From the NCBI RefSeq assembly GCF_037031285.1, contig NZ_JAYEZO010000001.1:1488001-1552000 (forward strand): a stretch of 64,000 nucleotides of DNA, written 5' to 3'. The stretch comes from Halobellus sp. LT62. Its GTDB lineage: Archaea > Halobacteriota > Halobacteria > Halobacteriales > Haloferacaceae. The notes beneath the pieces were generated by a model, which worked only from the letters and a program-made list of their open reading frames with translations, was not told the DNA's origin and ran no database searches. Positions 8,635 through 15,792 of the stretch are shown one piece after another; positions within the stretch are counted from its first letter, which is position 1; every line of letters starts with the position of its first letter. A program made the position numbers and the translations under genes.

Positions 8635-10269
8635 GTGAACACGTGGAAACGACGCGTCGTCGGATACGCCGGCTTTCTGGTCGGAGTGATGTTTCTCACG
8701 GCGCTCGGATACCAGTGGGGAATGCGGGCTTACGAGTCGGATCCGGTCTCGTTTCTGCATTCTCTGCAGGTCGTCGTCGAGATGTTCACGACGACCGGGT
8801 TCGGCGGCGACTCGCCGTGGGAGAGCCCGCAGATGAACGTCTTCATCATCGTGATGGACCTCGTCGGAATGGCACTCCTCTTCGGGGCGCTGCCGGTGTT
8901 GGCGACGCCGTTTCTGGAGGACGCCTTCTCGACGACGATTCCGACGGCCGTCGACGAGGCGCTCTCCGACCACGTCGTGATCTGCACGTACACGCCGCGA
9001 GTCGACGCTCTCACCGCCGAGCTCGACTCCTACGACGTGCCGTACGTGATCGTCGAACCCGATCGCGACACGGCCTCGGCGCTCTATGAGGACGGGCACC
9101 GCGTGATTCGGGCGAACCCCGAGTCGACGGAGGGCCTCTCGAACGCCCGTCTGTCCGACGCCCGGGCGCTCGTCGCTGACGGCGACGATCAGGTCGACGC
9201 GAGCATCGTTCTCGCCGCGAAGGAAGTAGCGGAGGACGTCTCGGTCCTCAGCGTCGTCGAGGAACCCGATCGGTCGAAGTATCATCGGCTAGCCGGGGCC
9301 GATCAGGTTCTGTCGCCGCGGTCGCTGCTCGGGGAGAGCCTCGCCGCGAAAGTGACGGCATCGCTCCGGGCGGAGATCGACGAGGCGATCGAGATCGGCG
9401 AGCACCTCGAACTCGCGGAAGTGCCGATCCATCACGGGAGTCGCCTCGCCGGGAACACGCTCGCAGAGAGCGGGATCAGAGAGAAGACCGGCGTCAACGT
9501 GATCGGCGCGTGGATCAACGGCGAGTTCAATGCGGTTCTCTCCCCCGAGGAATCCCTGCCCGCGGGAACCGTGCTGTTCGTCTCGGGGCGTCCAGCGCAG
9601 CTGGATGCGCTCGTTTCGATGACCCGAGCGGGCATCCGACACTTCGGGACGGGAGAGACGATCGTCATCGGCTACGGCGAGGTCGGCCGGACGGTCACCG
9701 CCGCACTCGACGACGCCGGTATCTCGCACACGGTGGTCGATCTGGTGGAGAAAGGCGGTGTCGACGTCGTCGGCGACGCGACCGAACCCGAGACGCTCGT
9801 CGAAGCGGGGATCGAAGACGCGCAAACGGTCGTGCTCGCGTTGTCCGACGACACCACGACCGAGTTCGCGACGCTCGTGATCCGCGATCTGGTCCCCCAA
9901 GCCGAAGTCGTCGCCCGCGTGAACGAGAGCGGGAGCATCCCGAAGACGTTCCGCGCCGGCGGCGACTACGTGCTCTCGCTGGCGACGGTCACGGGTCGGA
10001 TGATCGCATCGCGCGTGCTGGAGGGACGGGATGTGCTCTCCTTGGACCAGCAGGTCGAGGTCGTCCGAATGGAGGCACCAGCGATCGTCGGGCAGGCGGT
10101 CGGCGACGCCGACGTCCGAGCGAAAACCGGCGCGACGATCGTCGCCATCGAGCGGAACGGTGACGTCGTCACCGACGTCGGGCCGCAGACGGAGATATTC
10201 GTCGACGACAGCCTCGTCGTTGCCGGTACCGACGAGAGCGTCCGGGAGTTCGAGCGGTACTTCGGCTAG
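8635..10269 (+). CDS. Two-TM potassium-channel protein with tandem RCK (TrkA-N/TrkA-C) domains
   Basis: A 544-residue ion-channel protein. Residues 5-30 and 70-95 are membrane helices flanking a pore loop whose filter reads TTTGFGGD (residues 52-59), a variant of the K+ filter TVGYGD. Two cytoplasmic RCK units follow. The first (about 100-330) has a degenerate nucleotide motif (VVICTYTPRV); the second (about 335-540) starts with IVIGYGEVGRTV, a proper GxGxxG NAD-binding turn with acidic VVDLVEKGGV downstream. Each ends in a TrkA-C domain. Such proteins form tetrameric channels gated by ligands bound to the RCK ring. K+ is the inferred ion, important for a salt-in cytoplasm. The start is GTG, with a TATA box at the leaderless distance. 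Confidence 0.85.
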   Translation: MNTWKRRVVGYAGFLVGVMFLTALGYQWGMRAYESDPVSFLHSLQVVVEMFTTTGFGGDSPWESPQMNVFIIVMDLVGMALLFGALPVLATPFLEDAFSTTIPTAVDEALSDHVVICTYTPRVDALTAELDSYDVPYVIVEPDRDTASALYEDGHRVIRANPESTEGLSNARLSDARALVADGDDQVDASIVLAAKEVAEDVSVLSVVEEPDRSKYHRLAGADQVLSPRSLLGESLAAKVTASLRAEIDEAIEIGEHLELAEVPIHHGSRLAGNTLAESGIREKTGVNVIGAWINGEFNAVLSPEESLPAGTVLFVSGRPAQLDALVSMTRAGIRHFGTGETIVIGYGEVGRTVTAALDDAGISHTVVDLVEKGGVDVVGDATEPETLVEAGIEDAQTVVLALSDDTTTEFATLVIRDLVPQAEVVARVNESGSIPKTFRAGGDYVLSLATVTGRMIASRVLEGRDVLSLDQQVEVVRMEAPAIVGQAVGDADVRAKTGATIVAIERNGDVVTDVGPQTEIFVDDSLVVAGTDESVREFERYFG

Positions 10270-11294: not shown

Positions 11295-12242
11295 ATGACT
11301 GACGGCGAGGGGCTGGCGATCGACGGGGACAACGTGGACCTCGACGCCGACGACGTCGATGCTGTCCGCGAGGCCCTGATCTCGTGGTACGAGGACGACC
11401 ACCGCGCGTTCCCGTGGCGCGAGACCGACGACCCCTACGAGATCCTCGTCTCCGAGGTGATGAGCCAGCAGACGCAACTCGACCGCGTCGTCAGCGCGTG
11501 GCGGGACTTCCTCGATGAGTGGCCGACCGCCGGAGCCCTCGCCGCTGCCGAGCGCGCTGACGTCGTCGCGTTCTGGAGCGACCACTCGCTGGGGTACAAC
11601 AACCGCGCGAAGTACCTCCACGAGGCCGCCCGGCAGGTGAGAGAGGAGTACGACGACGAGTTCCCGCGCACGCCCGACGAACTCTCCGAGCTGATGGGCG
11701 TCGGGCCCTACACCGCGAATGCGGTCGCGTCGTTCGCGTTCAACAACGGGGACGCCGTCGTCGACACGAACGTCAAGCGGGTGCTGTACCGCGCGTTTGC
11801 AGAAATCCATAATGCGGACGATCCGGACTACGAATCCGTTGCGAACGCGCTTATGCCGGCCGGAGAGTCCCGAATCTGGAACAACGCGATTATGGAACTC
11901 GGCGGCGTCGCCTGTGGGAAGAAACCGCGCTGTGACGAGGCGGATTGCCCGTGGCGCGAGTGGTGTCACGCCTACCAGACTGGTGACTTCACCGCACCCG
12001 ACGTGCCCACCCAGCCGAGCTTCGAGGGGAGCAGGCGACAGTTCCGCGGACGGATTGTTCGACTCCTCGGCGAACACGACGAGATGGATCTCGACACGCT
12101 CGGCCATCGAATTCGCGTAGACTACACACCCGACGGTGAGCACGGCCGCGAGTGGCTTCGAGGTCTCCTTTCGGACCTCTCTGACGACGGTCTCGTCCAG
12201 ATCGAGGAACGGAACGGTCAGACAGTTACTCAACTCCGGTAG
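11295..12242 (+). CDS. mutY: A/G-specific adenine DNA glycosylase MutY, probably a hybrid of two alleles
   Basis: Removes adenine mispaired with 8-oxoguanine during base-excision repair. Seen: the catalytic Glu in SEVMSQQTQ (E54), the helix-hairpin-helix LMGVGPYTANAVAS (about 134-147), the catalytic Asp in VVDTNV (about 157) and four Cys for a [4Fe-4S] cluster (C207, C213, C218, C224; spacing x5-x4-x5). Instead of the bacterial MutT-like C-terminal domain, the last 85 residues look like a small winged helix (RIVRLLGEHDEMDLDTLGHR). ATG 11295 was chosen over earlier codons for domain fit. Residues from about 165 on differ in base composition from the front half, and a near-duplicate 3' half lies at 15340-15792. 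This gene is thus probably the product of recombination after an insertion, yet appears intact. Confidence 0.92.
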   Translation: MTDGEGLAIDGDNVDLDADDVDAVREALISWYEDDHRAFPWRETDDPYEILVSEVMSQQTQLDRVVSAWRDFLDEWPTAGALAAAERADVVAFWSDHSLGYNNRAKYLHEAARQVREEYDDEFPRTPDELSELMGVGPYTANAVASFAFNNGDAVVDTNVKRVLYRAFAEIHNADDPDYESVANALMPAGESRIWNNAIMELGGVACGKKPRCDEADCPWREWCHAYQTGDFTAPDVPTQPSFEGSRRQFRGRIVRLLGEHDEMDLDTLGHRIRVDYTPDGEHGREWLRGLLSDLSDDGLVQIEERNGQTVTQLR

Positions 12243-12395
12243 TCTGATCGAACCCAATGATAGCGGTCCTGAGGCGGCTAATACGAGCCCGTTTCAGCGG
12301 CCTGTCTACCGGAGTCCAAATCTGCCGAGAATCGAGGAGGGACAAAGTACATCTCCTGAGGCGATTCTCGGAAGATTATTCGTACTTACACGCAT

Positions 12396-12405
12396 AGTAC
12401 GTACT
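12396..12405. promoter_or_regulatory. Perfect palindrome before the histidine kinase gene
   Basis: AGTACGTACT, a perfect 10-bp palindrome ending 6 bp before the ATG at 12412 and flanked by two further GTACT or GTACTT half-sites. It sits where a leaderless transcript would begin, so it could be an operator or simply a start-site feature. Confidence 0.3.
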
Positions 12406-12411
12406 ACTCAA

Positions 12412-13413
12412 ATGCCGGACCCCCCGACACAGATATCTCCCGGACAAGAGGCTATGGAGGCGCTTATTCAGAACTTTCCGAACGGTGTTCTCGTTCTCTT
12501 CGACGACGACTTGCGGTATCGTGTCGTCGGCCCCGAGGTCCTCCCGTTCTCGAAAATGGAGGCGACCGAACTCTTGGGTCAGTCCATTCACGACCTGTTT
12601 CCCGAACGCACCGCTAACCGTCTCGAACCAGAATTACGTGCGACTATTCGAGGCGAACCACGCTCTTTCGACATTGAGTACGACGACCGCGTTCACCACA
12701 TCGAGACCAAACCCGCGGAGATCGACGGCGACACGTACGGTGTCCTCGCCACGCAGGACGTGACGCAGGAACGTGAAACTGCAACCGCGCTAGAACGACA
12801 GAACGAGCGCCTCGATCAGTTTGCGAGTATGATCTCACACGATATGCAGAATCCCCTCTCTATCGCTACCGGCCACTTGGAACTGTATCAAGAAACCGGT
12901 GACCCAGCGCATCTGACAAAGGTTGAAGAGACACTCACACGCCTCGACGACCTCACACAGGACCTCCTGACGCTCGCCCAGTCGAACGACGTTCCAGGTC
13001 CGTCTGAGACAGCGAGTCTCGACACAGTCGCACAGAGCGCGTGGGAAATGGTCGATACCCGTGACGCGACCTTGGAGGTTTCCGACCTCCAGATACGAAC
13101 TGATCGCGGACAGCTACAGGCGCTCTTTGAGAATCTGTTCCGGAACGCAATTGGTCACGGCGGCGACGACGTCACGATTAGAATCGGCCCCATCGAGGAC
13201 GGATTCTACGTCGAAGACACGGGAACAGGCATCCCCAAGGAGAAGCGCGAGGATGTCTTTGAGCACGGCTTTTCGACCGGATATGGTGGGAACGGTGTCG
13301 GTCTTACCATCGTCACTCGTATCGCCAAGCGCCACGACTGGTCGATTGAACTGACCGAAGAACAGTCCGGCGGCGCACGCTTCGAGTTTATCGACGTTGA
13401 AATTGTTGACTGA
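12412..13413 (+). CDS. PAS-domain sensor histidine kinase
   Basis: A 333-residue soluble sensor kinase. Residues 10-115 form a PAS domain (FPNGVLVLFDDDLRYRVVGP to YGVLATQDVTQERE). A HisKA dimerisation helix follows, with the phospho-accepting His143 in MISHDMQNPLS, then a HATPase_c domain with the N box ENLFRNAIGHG, the G1 box VEDTGTGIP and the G2 box GGNGVGLTIV. No membrane segment is seen, so the signal is cytoplasmic. Its stop lies only 3 bp from the stop of the convergent receiver/PAS gene, a natural partner. Codon use is less GC-rich than the flanking genes, and the pair sits between two mutY fragments, pointing to horizontal gain. Confidence 0.9.
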   Translation: MPDPPTQISPGQEAMEALIQNFPNGVLVLFDDDLRYRVVGPEVLPFSKMEATELLGQSIHDLFPERTANRLEPELRATIRGEPRSFDIEYDDRVHHIETKPAEIDGDTYGVLATQDVTQERETATALERQNERLDQFASMISHDMQNPLSIATGHLELYQETGDPAHLTKVEETLTRLDDLTQDLLTLAQSNDVPGPSETASLDTVAQSAWEMVDTRDATLEVSDLQIRTDRGQLQALFENLFRNAIGHGGDDVTIRIGPIEDGFYVEDTGTGIPKEKREDVFEHGFSTGYGGNGVGLTIVTRIAKRHDWSIELTEEQSGGARFEFIDVEIVD

Positions 13414-13416
13414 CCG

Positions 13417-14916
13417 CTACGCGGGTGTCGTCGGTGCATCGACCGGTGCGAGCACGACACCGAATCCACGAAGTGTTCCTGCCGCCGTGTAACTTGCGAC
13501 GATGGTCGTTGTGGCTGTGAACGTACTCTCATCGTCTCGCGTCCACTCCAGTTCTGCTGTGACTTCTCCGTCAGTCCGGGCAGATTCGATAAGTTCCTCT
13601 GCACGCTGTCCACCGGCCGTGTCTGGGGAGAGGAAAGCACCGAGATGTGTTCCGAGACAGTCCTCGACCGAATACCCGAGCACGTCTTCAGCTCTGTCGT
13701 TCCACCGGGTCACGTAGCCCTCATGGTCGAGGGTATAGAACGTGCTCGTAGCTGCTTCCTCAAAGAGGTAGTAGAACTCCCCGTGTTGCTTCGATGCTGC
13801 TCTCCGCTCTCGGGTGATGTCTTGGGCCGTGCACACGATGCTCCCACTCTCAGTCTGTGCCAAACGGTGATCAGTAATACGCCGATCTCCGTGCTTGGTG
13901 AGACGAACGGTTTCACCGCTCCAGTACCCAGTCTCTGCGACATCTGGAAGGATACGGTGTTCGAGCCGTTCCGCTTCCTCGTTGTGATAGAGCTGTTTCC
14001 ACGACCGACCGACGAGCTCTGACCGCTCGTACTCAAAGAGCGTGGCGAACGCAGGGTTCACGTATGAGAACGTGCCATCAGGTTCAACGAGGCTGATCCC
14101 TTCAGTCGCAGTTTCGATGACGTGGAGCCCGTGGTCCTCCTTGTACTCCGTGATGTCTTGTACATAGCCAACGATCCTGACGACGGACCCGTCGTCACCA
14201 AAGATCGGTTTACTCTGTCCGCGCACCCACTGAAGCCCCTGCTCCGGATTCATCACACGGTACTCGATCTCGTCAGGGGCCCCATTCGCCAACTTCTCCA
14301 TCGACTCTCTCGCCATTTTGCGGTCGTTCTCGTGGATGTGTTCGAGGAACACCTCAGGGGACTCATCGAGTGCTTCGACCGGGATCCCCCAGATATCCTC
14401 GAATGCGGAGTTGATGAAGAGTAATTCGCTCCAATCCCCAGTAAAACTGTACAGGACGTTTTCCGAGTTCTCTGCGAGTTCTGCGAACCGCTGTTTTGTC
14501 TCTCGGATCGAGTCCTGTGCGTTGTAGCTGGCGACGGTGTTTTTGATTCGGTTAGCGAGAATCGCATACTGACCGGATCCTGTTTCCTTCTGGAGGTAGT
14601 CAGTTACTCCAGCAGAGATCGCATCACTCGCAACTTCTTCGCTCCCCTTCCCTGTGTACAGAATGAACGGGATTCGAGGATGTGTTTCGCGGAGTGTAGT
14701 GAGAAAGTCAAGTCCAGATTGTCCAGGCATATCGTAATCTGAGACAACACAGTGATACTCACGTACTGAAAACATCTCTTGGGCTTCACTCACGCTCGTC
14801 GCTGATTCGACGACAAAGCGGTCGTCTTCCCGACGAAGATAAATTGCGGTGAGTTCCGCTAGCTCCGGCTCATCATCGACGTGGAGAACACGAATTTTGG
14901 GCGGAAGAGAGTCCAT
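13417..14916 (-). CDS. Response-regulator receiver protein with three PAS domains
   Basis: A 499-residue protein: receiver domain at 1-125 (acid pair D14/D15, phospho-acceptor D60 in VVSDYDMPG, Lys in LYTGKGS), then three PAS domains (about 145-265, 270-385 and 390-495) with the PAS-C tail GYVQDITEYKE. It has neither a DNA-binding output domain nor kinase boxes, so it probably relays by protein contact, as do many haloarchaeal receiver-PAS proteins. The ATG at 14916 (MDSLPPKIRVLHVDDE) is preferred because the receiver begins at once; an upstream GTG or ATG would add an unrelated Cys-containing tail. It converges with the sensor kinase gene and is its likely phosphorylation partner. Its composition is less GC-rich than its surroundings. 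Confidence 0.88.
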   Translation of the reverse strand: MDSLPPKIRVLHVDDEPELAELTAIYLRREDDRFVVESATSVSEAQEMFSVREYHCVVSDYDMPGQSGLDFLTTLRETHPRIPFILYTGKGSEEVASDAISAGVTDYLQKETGSGQYAILANRIKNTVASYNAQDSIRETKQRFAELAENSENVLYSFTGDWSELLFINSAFEDIWGIPVEALDESPEVFLEHIHENDRKMARESMEKLANGAPDEIEYRVMNPEQGLQWVRGQSKPIFGDDGSVVRIVGYVQDITEYKEDHGLHVIETATEGISLVEPDGTFSYVNPAFATLFEYERSELVGRSWKQLYHNEEAERLEHRILPDVAETGYWSGETVRLTKHGDRRITDHRLAQTESGSIVCTAQDITRERRAASKQHGEFYYLFEEAATSTFYTLDHEGYVTRWNDRAEDVLGYSVEDCLGTHLGAFLSPDTAGGQRAEELIESARTDGEVTAELEWTRDDESTFTATTTIVASYTAAGTLRGFGVVLAPVDAPTTPA

Positions 14917-14983
14917 TGTGCACTTACAAGTAAATGTAGCTTCATAACTCCGCAGGATTTCCACCCTGAAACACAGCGAATGA

Positions 14984-15048
14984 CTAGCGCGGTTTGAAGA
15001 AAACCATAATGCAGGCGATCCAGACTACGAAACCGTTGCGAACGCGCC
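14984..15048 (+). repeat. Short remnant of mutY (direct repeat of 11786-11851)
   Basis: About 60 bp matching the middle of the intact mutY at 11786-11851. Over the best-aligned 44 bp, starting at the CATAATGC shared by both copies, I count five mismatches. The translation HNAGDPDYETVANA corresponds to HNADDPDYESVANA in MutY, in frame. The remnant resembles the 5' end of the mutY 3' half at 11800 and not the headless copy at 15340. Together, 11786 and 14984 bracket the mutY 3' end plus the two-component pair as a direct repeat. Confidence 0.8.
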
Positions 15049-15055
15049 CACCATT

Positions 15056-15262
15056 GTGCGGAAGAATAGCATCGAGAGCTTCTTGCAGAGTACGACGTCG
15101 ATTTTACTTTCAGAAGCGTACGCGCACTATGGGGATGTGCACACCGAACTTTGTACGGACTTCCTCACTAAATCCGTCACCCGTGCTGAACACGACGAAC
15201 TCGTCAGTACCGAAGGTATCGGAAAAACGGAGTTCGTCTCGTTCCTCGAAAAGGCAGAATAA
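15056..15262 (+). CDS. Small ORF fused in frame to the mutY remnant, function unknown
   Basis: Sixty-eight codons from a GTG; the frame is continuous with the mutY remnant just upstream. The protein is mainly helical and polar, and its end STEGIGKTEFVSFLEKAE recalls a single helix-hairpin-helix (GIG) motif. Composition is less GC-rich than the flanking genes, like the two-component pair. It could be the tail of a gene truncated by the rearrangement rather than an independent gene; nothing in the sequence settles this. Confidence 0.35.
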   Translation: MRKNSIESFLQSTTSILLSEAYAHYGDVHTELCTDFLTKSVTRAEHDELVSTEGIGKTEFVSFLEKAE

Positions 15263-15309
15263 CCGCGTCAGTCCTGAAGGTCCGCGACAGTACGCCCAAG
15301 CTCCCGGGC

Positions 15310-15792
15310 ATGTTCGCTCTCACTTACATCATACCGCTCTTCTATCGGGCCTTCGACGTCGAAGACGACGATTCGGAATTCGAGCGCGTGGCTGCGGAAC
15401 TGATGCCCGCAGGCGAGTCTCGCGTCTGGAACAACGCCATAATGGAACTCGGCGGCGTCGCTTGCGGGAAGACCCCCCGGTGCGACGAGGCGGGCTGCCC
15501 GTGGCGACGGTGGTGTCACGCCTACCAGATCGGTGACTTCACCGCGCCCGACGTTCCGACCCAACCGAGTTTCGAGGGGAGCCGCCGGCAGTTCCGCGGG
15601 CGGATCGTTCGACTCCTCGGCGAACACGACGAAATGGATCTGGACACGCTCGGCCACCGAATCCGCGTGGACTACACTCCCGACGGTGAGCACGGGCGAG
15701 AGTGGCTTCGAGACCTACTTTCAGATCTCGCTGATGACGGCCTCGTCCGAGTCGAGGAACGGGGTGATCAAACGGTCGCTCGACTCCGATAG
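15310..15792 (+). pseudogene. Headless 3' half of a second mutY
   Basis: From about 15340 (YRAF) to the stop, the translation matches the last 145 residues of the intact MutY. Over the final 130 residues I count 13 differences. It keeps the four cluster cysteines (CGKTPRC, GCPWRRWC) and the winged-helix tail but lacks the catalytic Glu, the helix-hairpin-helix and the catalytic Asp, so it cannot be a glycosylase. The 30 bp upstream, including an ATG at 15310, are unrelated to mutY. Its GC-rich, Asp/Glu-rich junction (DVEDDDSEFERV) looks more like the resident genome than the corresponding part of the intact gene. I infer this is the original 3' end, displaced by the insertion. Confidence 0.88.

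Follow-up and report, generated by a model that had tools for sequence, protein, structure and literature searches.

What sort of event could leave an archaeal mutY gene complete and, about three kilobases downstream, a second copy of its 3' half that has no beginning? This question is raised by a 64,000-nucleotide stretch of the Halobellus sp. LT62 genome (RefSeq assembly GCF_037031285.1, contig NZ_JAYEZO010000001.1, positions 1,488,001 to 1,552,000 of the forward strand), which is termed here 'the window' and whose first letter is position 1 for the coordinates given below. Both the intact gene and the headless copy are present as claimed in a preliminary description of the sequence, and are separated by a gap of 3,097 bp. 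The explanation that we favor, at a probability of approximately 0.88, is that the intervening segment is a decayed integrative element (or two such elements in tandem) that was inserted site-specifically into a fixed attachment (att) site in the middle of mutY. Sequence comparison shows the last ~150 codons of mutY in an element-type version, which starts from a shared core and is joined to resident fronts of the gene in several genera, with a displaced resident half downstream. The features on which this argument depends are the following:

11295 to 12242, plus strand: hybrid full-length mutY (315 amino acids), consisting of a resident 5' half (approximately residues 1-165) and an element-type 3' half
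11787 to 11798, plus strand: crossover core at the left junction (attL), codons Y-R-A-F (TACCGCGCGTTT)
11790 to 11837, plus strand: 48-nucleotide signature of the element, with three or fewer mismatches in 14 of 392 genomes
11799 to 11813, plus strand: putative attachment site, right arm in the reading frame (GCAGAAATCCATAAT, codons A-E-I-H-N)
15343 to 15354, plus strand: crossover core at the right junction (attR; TATCGGGCCTTC)
15340 to 15792, plus strand: headless, displaced resident 3' half of mutY (150 amino acids)

The mutY gene of the window is a full-length open frame that is not disrupted, and it shares 83% DNA identity with the headless copy over 300 nucleotides (blast E value 5.5e-121); the 13 differences previously reported within about the last 130 residues were recounted by eye with the same result. 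The break between the two halves falls among motifs of the enzyme: a DTNVKRV motif (residue 157 onward), which we take from E. coli MutY to be the site of the catalytic aspartate, precedes it and is outside the headless copy, and four clustered cysteines (207, 213, 218 and 224), presumably the [4Fe-4S] ligands, follow it and are found in both copies.

The absence of this insertion from close relatives had been proposed as a check, and was observed. In each of six same-genus genomes that were read, mutY is accompanied by the same upstream small gene as in the window and by reductase-like and permease genes 1.2-9.3 kb downstream (a kef-like gene is also found downstream in five of the six), and in none of them does the ~15 kb that was read contain a second mutY piece, the kinase gene or the receiver gene. 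In two same-genus genomes (G007, locus L169, and G009, locus L170), mutY and the conserved reductase-like gene are approximately 9 kb apart, again without a second mutY piece.

Comparable arrangements recur elsewhere in the order. The headless protein was used as a query against 392 genomes of the order (including the window's own genome, G000), a genome being counted when it gave more than one match; a second mutY 3' piece was found in 18 of them, the window included, and in 15 of those 18 it follows mutY, in the same contig and orientation, at a distance of 0.7-57 kb. The longest distances are those in G028 (57 kb), G305 (25 kb) and G025 (15 kb), and the others are found in G389 (4.2 kb), G096 (3.9 kb), G259 (3.2 kb), G000 (3.1 kb), G320 (2.5 kb), G331 and G326 (1.9 kb each), G254 (1.8 kb, running off the contig end), G403 (1.2 kb), G386 and G397 (0.8 kb each) and G024 (0.7 kb). 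The second piece is on another contig in G293 and in G247; an element is presumed in the latter, its two parts being on different contigs, and the piece in G293, which lies on a 22.6-kb contig next to an open reading frame (ORF) that looks transposase-like by eye, was not counted as an element end at mutY.

The position of the break is nearly constant across these genomes. In 14 of the 18, the start of the match falls between residues 154 and 175; in one it is at residue 186, and in three it is at residues 233, 236 and 271. Aligned junctions place the crossover at the codons Y-R-A-F (residue 165), that is, in the middle of the gene and not at its 3' end, where the preliminary description had placed the target. 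At the left junction of the element-type cases, a resident front is followed by the core and then by GCAGAAATCCATAATGCGGACGATCC or a variant of it (residues AEIHNADDPDYETVANALMP); at a typical right junction, the end of the island is followed by the core and by GACGT (residues DVPDDD, native), the right copy in G331 being element-type as well. The core pattern YCGNGCNTTY is present at 13 of 14 right junctions (that of G247 is one base short) and on both sides in the window. The best mutY match contains no stop in any of the 17 genomes that, apart from the window's, carry a second piece; the mutY linker is element-type in 11 of the 18; and the carriers of the 48-nucleotide signature belong to seven genera, with no match to a reversed control.

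The two halves of mutY have different histories, as indicated by separate trees of a non-random sample of 68 full mutY genes (best matches together with genomes of interest). In the front-half tree, 19 element-type genes from 10 genera are scattered (15 changes, compared with 16.7 when shuffled), and the placement of 13 core element-type genes (seven genera) in one clade is rejected (difference in log likelihood (lnL) 155, p 1.6e-5), whereas the rear half does not reject that same clade (p 0.77); the genus designated g13, conversely, is rejected as a clade by the rear half (p 0.0075) and is not rejected by the front (p 0.74). The 13-gene tests omit G008, G010, G012, G034, G096 and G025, which are element-type by a looser pattern. 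Three of these genes (in G008, G010 and G012, all of one genus; loci L024, L025 and L026) have another unusual mutY linker (KQVRQADDPPYE...), were found with no second copy, and make up a long-branched group in the tree of front halves.

When 14 headless or other second pieces are added, all 19 element-type rear halves fall on one side of a single branch (SH-aLRT 91), accompanied on that side by the second pieces H331, H137 and H293. The window's headless copy groups with G003 and G007 of its own genus, as do the headless copies of G028 and G320 with theirs, and the rear half of the window's intact gene groups with rear halves from other genera; the earlier suggestion that a foreign mutY 3' end recombined into the gene and pushed the resident end downstream was, on this evidence, largely right.

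The foreign signal is concentrated near the crossover. When 14 element-type genes were examined by segment, the three nearest rows were element-type in the first 72 nucleotides (89-97%) and mixed beyond that point; for one queried gene, the row nearest to it over that stretch was a second piece of element type from the same genome. When the 60 nucleotides before the core are compared with the 60 after it, identity increases in six of six genome pairs, and it peaks in the next 120 nucleotides in four of the six. The change in composition that had been remarked on at the join is also seen more generally, since codons 3-11 past the crossover have a third-position GC of 0.50 in 13 genes of element type and of 0.90 in 49 native-type genes. 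The notion of a 3' end carried by the element consequently holds near the crossover and not for the entire rear half, which is mosaic, with a tail that in places resembles the host copies. We claim a conflict between front and rear halves and a foreign origin near the crossover; we do not claim a single clade for the whole rear half, because the signal in that half weakens when the signature residues are removed (see below). The combined pattern of trees and identity fits an integration that may have been followed by homologous recombination.

An enzyme that might perform such an integration is encoded close to the displaced half in the longer elements. Integrases were found by a family search (PF00589) and a clade search, with identity measured to the G305 protein. 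In G305 (Halogeometricum limi), G025, G247 (Halovenus rubra) and G028, related tyrosine integrases (65-83% to the G305 protein) are encoded on the same strand as the headless copy and 0.1-4.2 kb from it, and in Salinibaculum litoreum an integrase (68%) precedes a headless copy for which mutY is 111 kb away on the same strand; there are, then, five long elements, one of 111 kb, with an integrase of this clade near the displaced half. The G305 integrase scores above cut-off for both PF00589 (38.5 bits) and the SAM-like family PF02899 (23.3 bits), and far below the curated NCBIfam cut-offs for XerA (47.8 of 220 bits), XerC (44.5 of 335) and XerD (38.5 of 330). The remark that no integrase is visible holds for the window as far as the listed matches go, and does not extend to the elements of these other genomes. 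For other integrases (38-58%), no mutY piece was found at loci seen with 1.5-kb flanks, flanks so short that they also miss the pieces in G025 and G247.

A candidate attachment site is found at the same junctions. For each of 14 islands, the stretch that closes the island ahead of the right core was set against the one that follows the left core, and the pairing between them was scored. The putative att arms form an inverted repeat (ATTTC, 21 nucleotides, GAAAT) with longer imperfect arms in the five elements that encode an integrase and in G096; in these six islands taken together, pairing occurs at 70 of 96 arm positions (the mean after shuffling is 29.1, and the highest value in 20,000 shuffles is 46), and the same register is best in all six. 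The right arm is read in the mutY frame as A-E-I-H-N, and codons 3-16 show a third-base agreement of 0.90, compared with 0.80 for codons 20-59, which suggests that the codons following the crossover may be kept as DNA for the integrase; native sequences also vary at the right-arm position of the frame.

The mechanism that these observations suggest can be outlined as follows. Recombination at the Y-R-A-F codons would produce a complete hybrid mutY at the left junction and leave the displaced half at the right junction; the enzyme responsible would be the tyrosine integrase that the five long elements encode close to their right junction, acting at an attachment site composed of inverted-repeat arms around the core, 21 nucleotides apart, with the right arm in the mutY frame. 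The direct repeat of ~450 bp thus created could later allow homologous recombination to convert the tails or to remove the island. The integrase would have been lost from the window, leaving a two-component pair, a third and truncated piece of mutY, and the end of a Fic/Doc-like gene, which are located as follows:

12412 to 13413, plus strand: cargo, a PAS_4-HisKA-HATPase_c histidine kinase (Pfam)
13417 to 14916, minus strand: cargo, a response-regulator receiver followed by PAS domains (Pfam)
14992 to 15047, plus strand: third mutY fragment, element-type, starting at the core; possibly the remnant of a second attachment site
15048 to 15262, plus strand: last ~75 codons of a 282-residue cassette gene (weakly Doc-like) that is whole in other genomes
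15268 to 15345, minus strand: small convergent ORF that the right junction truncates; by eye, a candidate antitoxin

The third fragment is 89% identical to positions 11795-11850 of mutY (E value 2e-14), agrees at 48 of 54 positions with four element-type genes (that of the window among them) as compared with 33 of 54 for the window's headless half, and is fused to the end of the cassette gene. With this fragment, which had escaped the preliminary description, and with that remnant beside it, the insert of 3.1 kb has the look of a compound and decayed one; the third fragment also hints that units may stack in tandem at the site. The receiver-PAS protein has no kinase, DNA-binding or other recognized output domain in the Pfam list, and a search across the family returned many weak matches to the kinase and receiver domains.

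The cassette remnant connects the window to other islands. It matches, at 84-87%, the end of a 282-residue gene that is whole in G033 and G012, and that is also present in the islands of G320, G403 and G096, as judged by eye from its first residues; the islands of G403 and G320 are 91% alike, and that of G096 75%. The version in G320 gives a weak match to a Doc-type family (DOC_P1, TIGR01550) at 21.4 bits, below the cut-off of 38.65. The Doc-like gene (whole in L155 and L156, with a matching end in all of L155, L156, L157 and L159) and a convergent ORF of ~34 codons, seen by eye, form a candidate toxin-antitoxin cassette, which in G012 is located away from mutY. Pfam or NCBIfam was run on one member per kind of cargo, except that both PIN genes were run, and the short islands proved to carry AbiEi/AbiEii (G326 and G331), PIN-domain genes (G386 and G024), the Doc-like gene (G320, G403 and G096) and an AlbA_2-domain gene (G320). 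The G305 element carries HerA-like and weakly PglZ-like genes, and the 57-kb G028 element contains Hma-like genes and AbiE (93% over 1,739 bp); several large cargo proteins gave no family match.

Several observations weigh against integration as the explanation, and are collected here. None of the 10 listed PF00589 matches (of 14) in G000 is inside the window, G000 has no integrase of the clade at E <= 1e-60, and an integrase of that clade (64%) is found away from mutY in G241 (L142, 10065-11174). No free form has been found: viral contigs contained no relative of the headless mutY or of the integrase, no circular form was recognized in viral, phage or plasmid collections, and of the three plasmid records and one phage record that match the headless protein, the best (a plasmid, and the only one inspected) is a full-length glycosylase gene. 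The arrangement of an element-type rear and a resident headless copy is not found in every case, for seven of the 18 genomes in which a second piece was found have a native-type mutY linker (G259, G024, G293, G386, G389, G137 and G397), including five of the 15 same-contig cases (G259, G024, G386, G389 and G397), and four carriers of the signature (G359, G350, G177 and G374) give only one match to the headless protein. Conversion between halves, deletion or loss would explain the native-type linkers and the single-copy carriers; in G374, the first 72 nucleotides are element-like and the remainder native-like. The second piece in G137, a fragment of element type, is separated by 182 kb from a mutY that is itself native-type, and was likewise not counted as an element end at mutY; at that locus (L089, approximately 9210-9473) the mutY 3' fragment is truncated and no left arm was seen.

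The trees and the attachment site are open to objections of the same sort. When the ~30 signature residues that define the labels are removed, the element-type rear halves are not one clade (12 changes versus 16.8 shuffled), and a rear clade that is enforced is 39.5 lnL units worse (p 0.085); the rear half still rejects genus g13 (p 0.0006). The att register was fixed after the junctions had been looked at. Only six of the 14 islands display the dyad; the score is 3 of 16 for the window and 4-8 of 16 for G386, G259, G331, G326, G320, G403 and G389, and three of these low-scoring short islands have a native-type mutY. A test for covariation of the two arms did not demonstrate it, since arms paired with their own partners barely surpassed swapped ones (76 of 720 permutations were as good or better).

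Among the alternatives, the one that survives best concerns the manner in which the small islands, including that of the window, came to be where they are: instead of decayed elements, they might be non-autonomous cassettes (a mutY 3' half plus toxin-antitoxin or other cargo) that rely on the mutY integrase, acting in trans, for their movement. The most suggestive case is that of G326 and G331, which belong to different families (f1 and f4) and share an AbiE island that is 93% identical over 1,866 bp, together with mutY rear halves that are 89% identical and front halves that are only 77% identical (the matched part of the second piece is 79% identical); these units are the best hint that short units may travel, with decay from longer elements as the alternative. 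Several short islands contain AbiE, PIN-domain or Doc-like genes, which points in the same direction. Against this, the short islands that were scored, G096 excepted, have no good left arm, which makes their present mobility doubtful, and AbiE is also found within the 57-kb G028 element, so that short islands could be derived by deletion. We regard movement in trans as a real possibility, short of probable. An extension of it, in which the mutY 3' half is itself a mobile attachment site and integrase-less units are moved in trans, stack in tandem, and keep replacing half of a repair enzyme, is more speculative, and is offered tentatively.

Homologous recombination with imported DNA, by which mutY 3' halves and cargo would arrive through allelic exchange and the sharp left edge would reflect coincidence or selection, is improbable. 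It would accommodate the mosaic tails of the rear halves and the integrase-less island common to the different families of G326 and G331; it does not account for a breakpoint that remains at the same codons despite very different island lengths, for the rise in identity at the core in every pair compared, or for the particular integrase clade and the att dyad found with the long elements. Less likely again is a tandem duplication of the 3' part of mutY, after which the copies would have diverged and the two-component genes would have been inserted between them, with no mobile element bearing its own mutY end. The partial nature of the copy and the fact that no integrase was found in the window would agree with a duplication, as would the two alike copies in G386 (tree branch lengths of 0; L080, 3559-4443 and 5246-5611, both 3' halves native-type, as if one had been converted); it is contradicted by the grouping of the window's rear half with other genera and of its headless copy with its own genus, by the conflict between front and rear trees, and by the recurrence of one breakpoint in many genomes with unrelated cargo. 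An assembly artefact, in whose favor nothing was found, is very unlikely, as like architecture is found in many independent assemblies (including a Salinibaculum litoreum chromosome recorded as complete) and the window's two copies differ by 17% over 300 nucleotides.

Integration that regenerates its target gene is exemplified by phage 21 and e14 in icd. Gene-regenerating genomic islands have been described in tRNA, tmRNA or protein genes in the available portions of PMC4383910, and islands in dusA and trmE in those of PMC4482086 and PMC8409611. The elements favored here are similar to such islands in their tyrosine integrase, split target, restoration of the gene by the element, and displaced fragment at the far end, and differ from them in the mutY target, the mid-gene crossover, the supply of ~150 codons that include the cysteine cluster, and a putative att arm within protein code. 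The closest case by target is ICEEa1 of Elizabethkingia anophelis, which, according to the portions of PMC5458099 available, is inserted in mutY at position 841 with a tyrosine recombinase and inverted repeats at the site, truncates MutY (57 amino acids lost) in a manner thought to raise the mutation rate, and is predicted to restore mutY upon excision. ICEEa1 and the present elements are alike in being integrative, in having a tyrosine recombinase, and in lying in mutY with inverted repeats at the site; unlike ICEEa1, the present elements leave mutY at full length, and their site recurs across families.

In archaea, integrase targets in protein genes include the HMG-CoA reductase gene (virus BJ1), a metal efflux gene (Msmi-Pro1) and an AsnC gene (NitGar-E6), as given in the available portions of PMC8371274; those elements have an att site in a coding gene, as here, and in both instances the recombination is a predicted one; the targets differ. 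The main text of that review of archaeal integrases contains no mention of mutY, no archaeal mutY island appears in the available portions of PMC8371274, PMC4619438, PMC4234485, PMC8694125 or PMC5458099, and a combination of mutY, integrase and haloarchaea returned nothing in the literature searched, subscription papers being outside it. The event is of a known kind, gene-regenerating integration, with a target and an integrase clade that were not found in the literature searched.

These findings point to a recurrent archaeal integration site outside tRNA genes, with a matching integrase clade and a putative att site in which the integrase-binding arm would overlap protein code. By this route, mobile DNA would have turned a core repair enzyme into a chimera in several genera. 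The site and its integrase are testable, and perhaps usable as an integration tool, and the site is a place in which to look for toxin-antitoxin and defence-like cargo, such as the AbiE, PIN-domain, Doc-like cassette, Hma-like and HerA-like genes.

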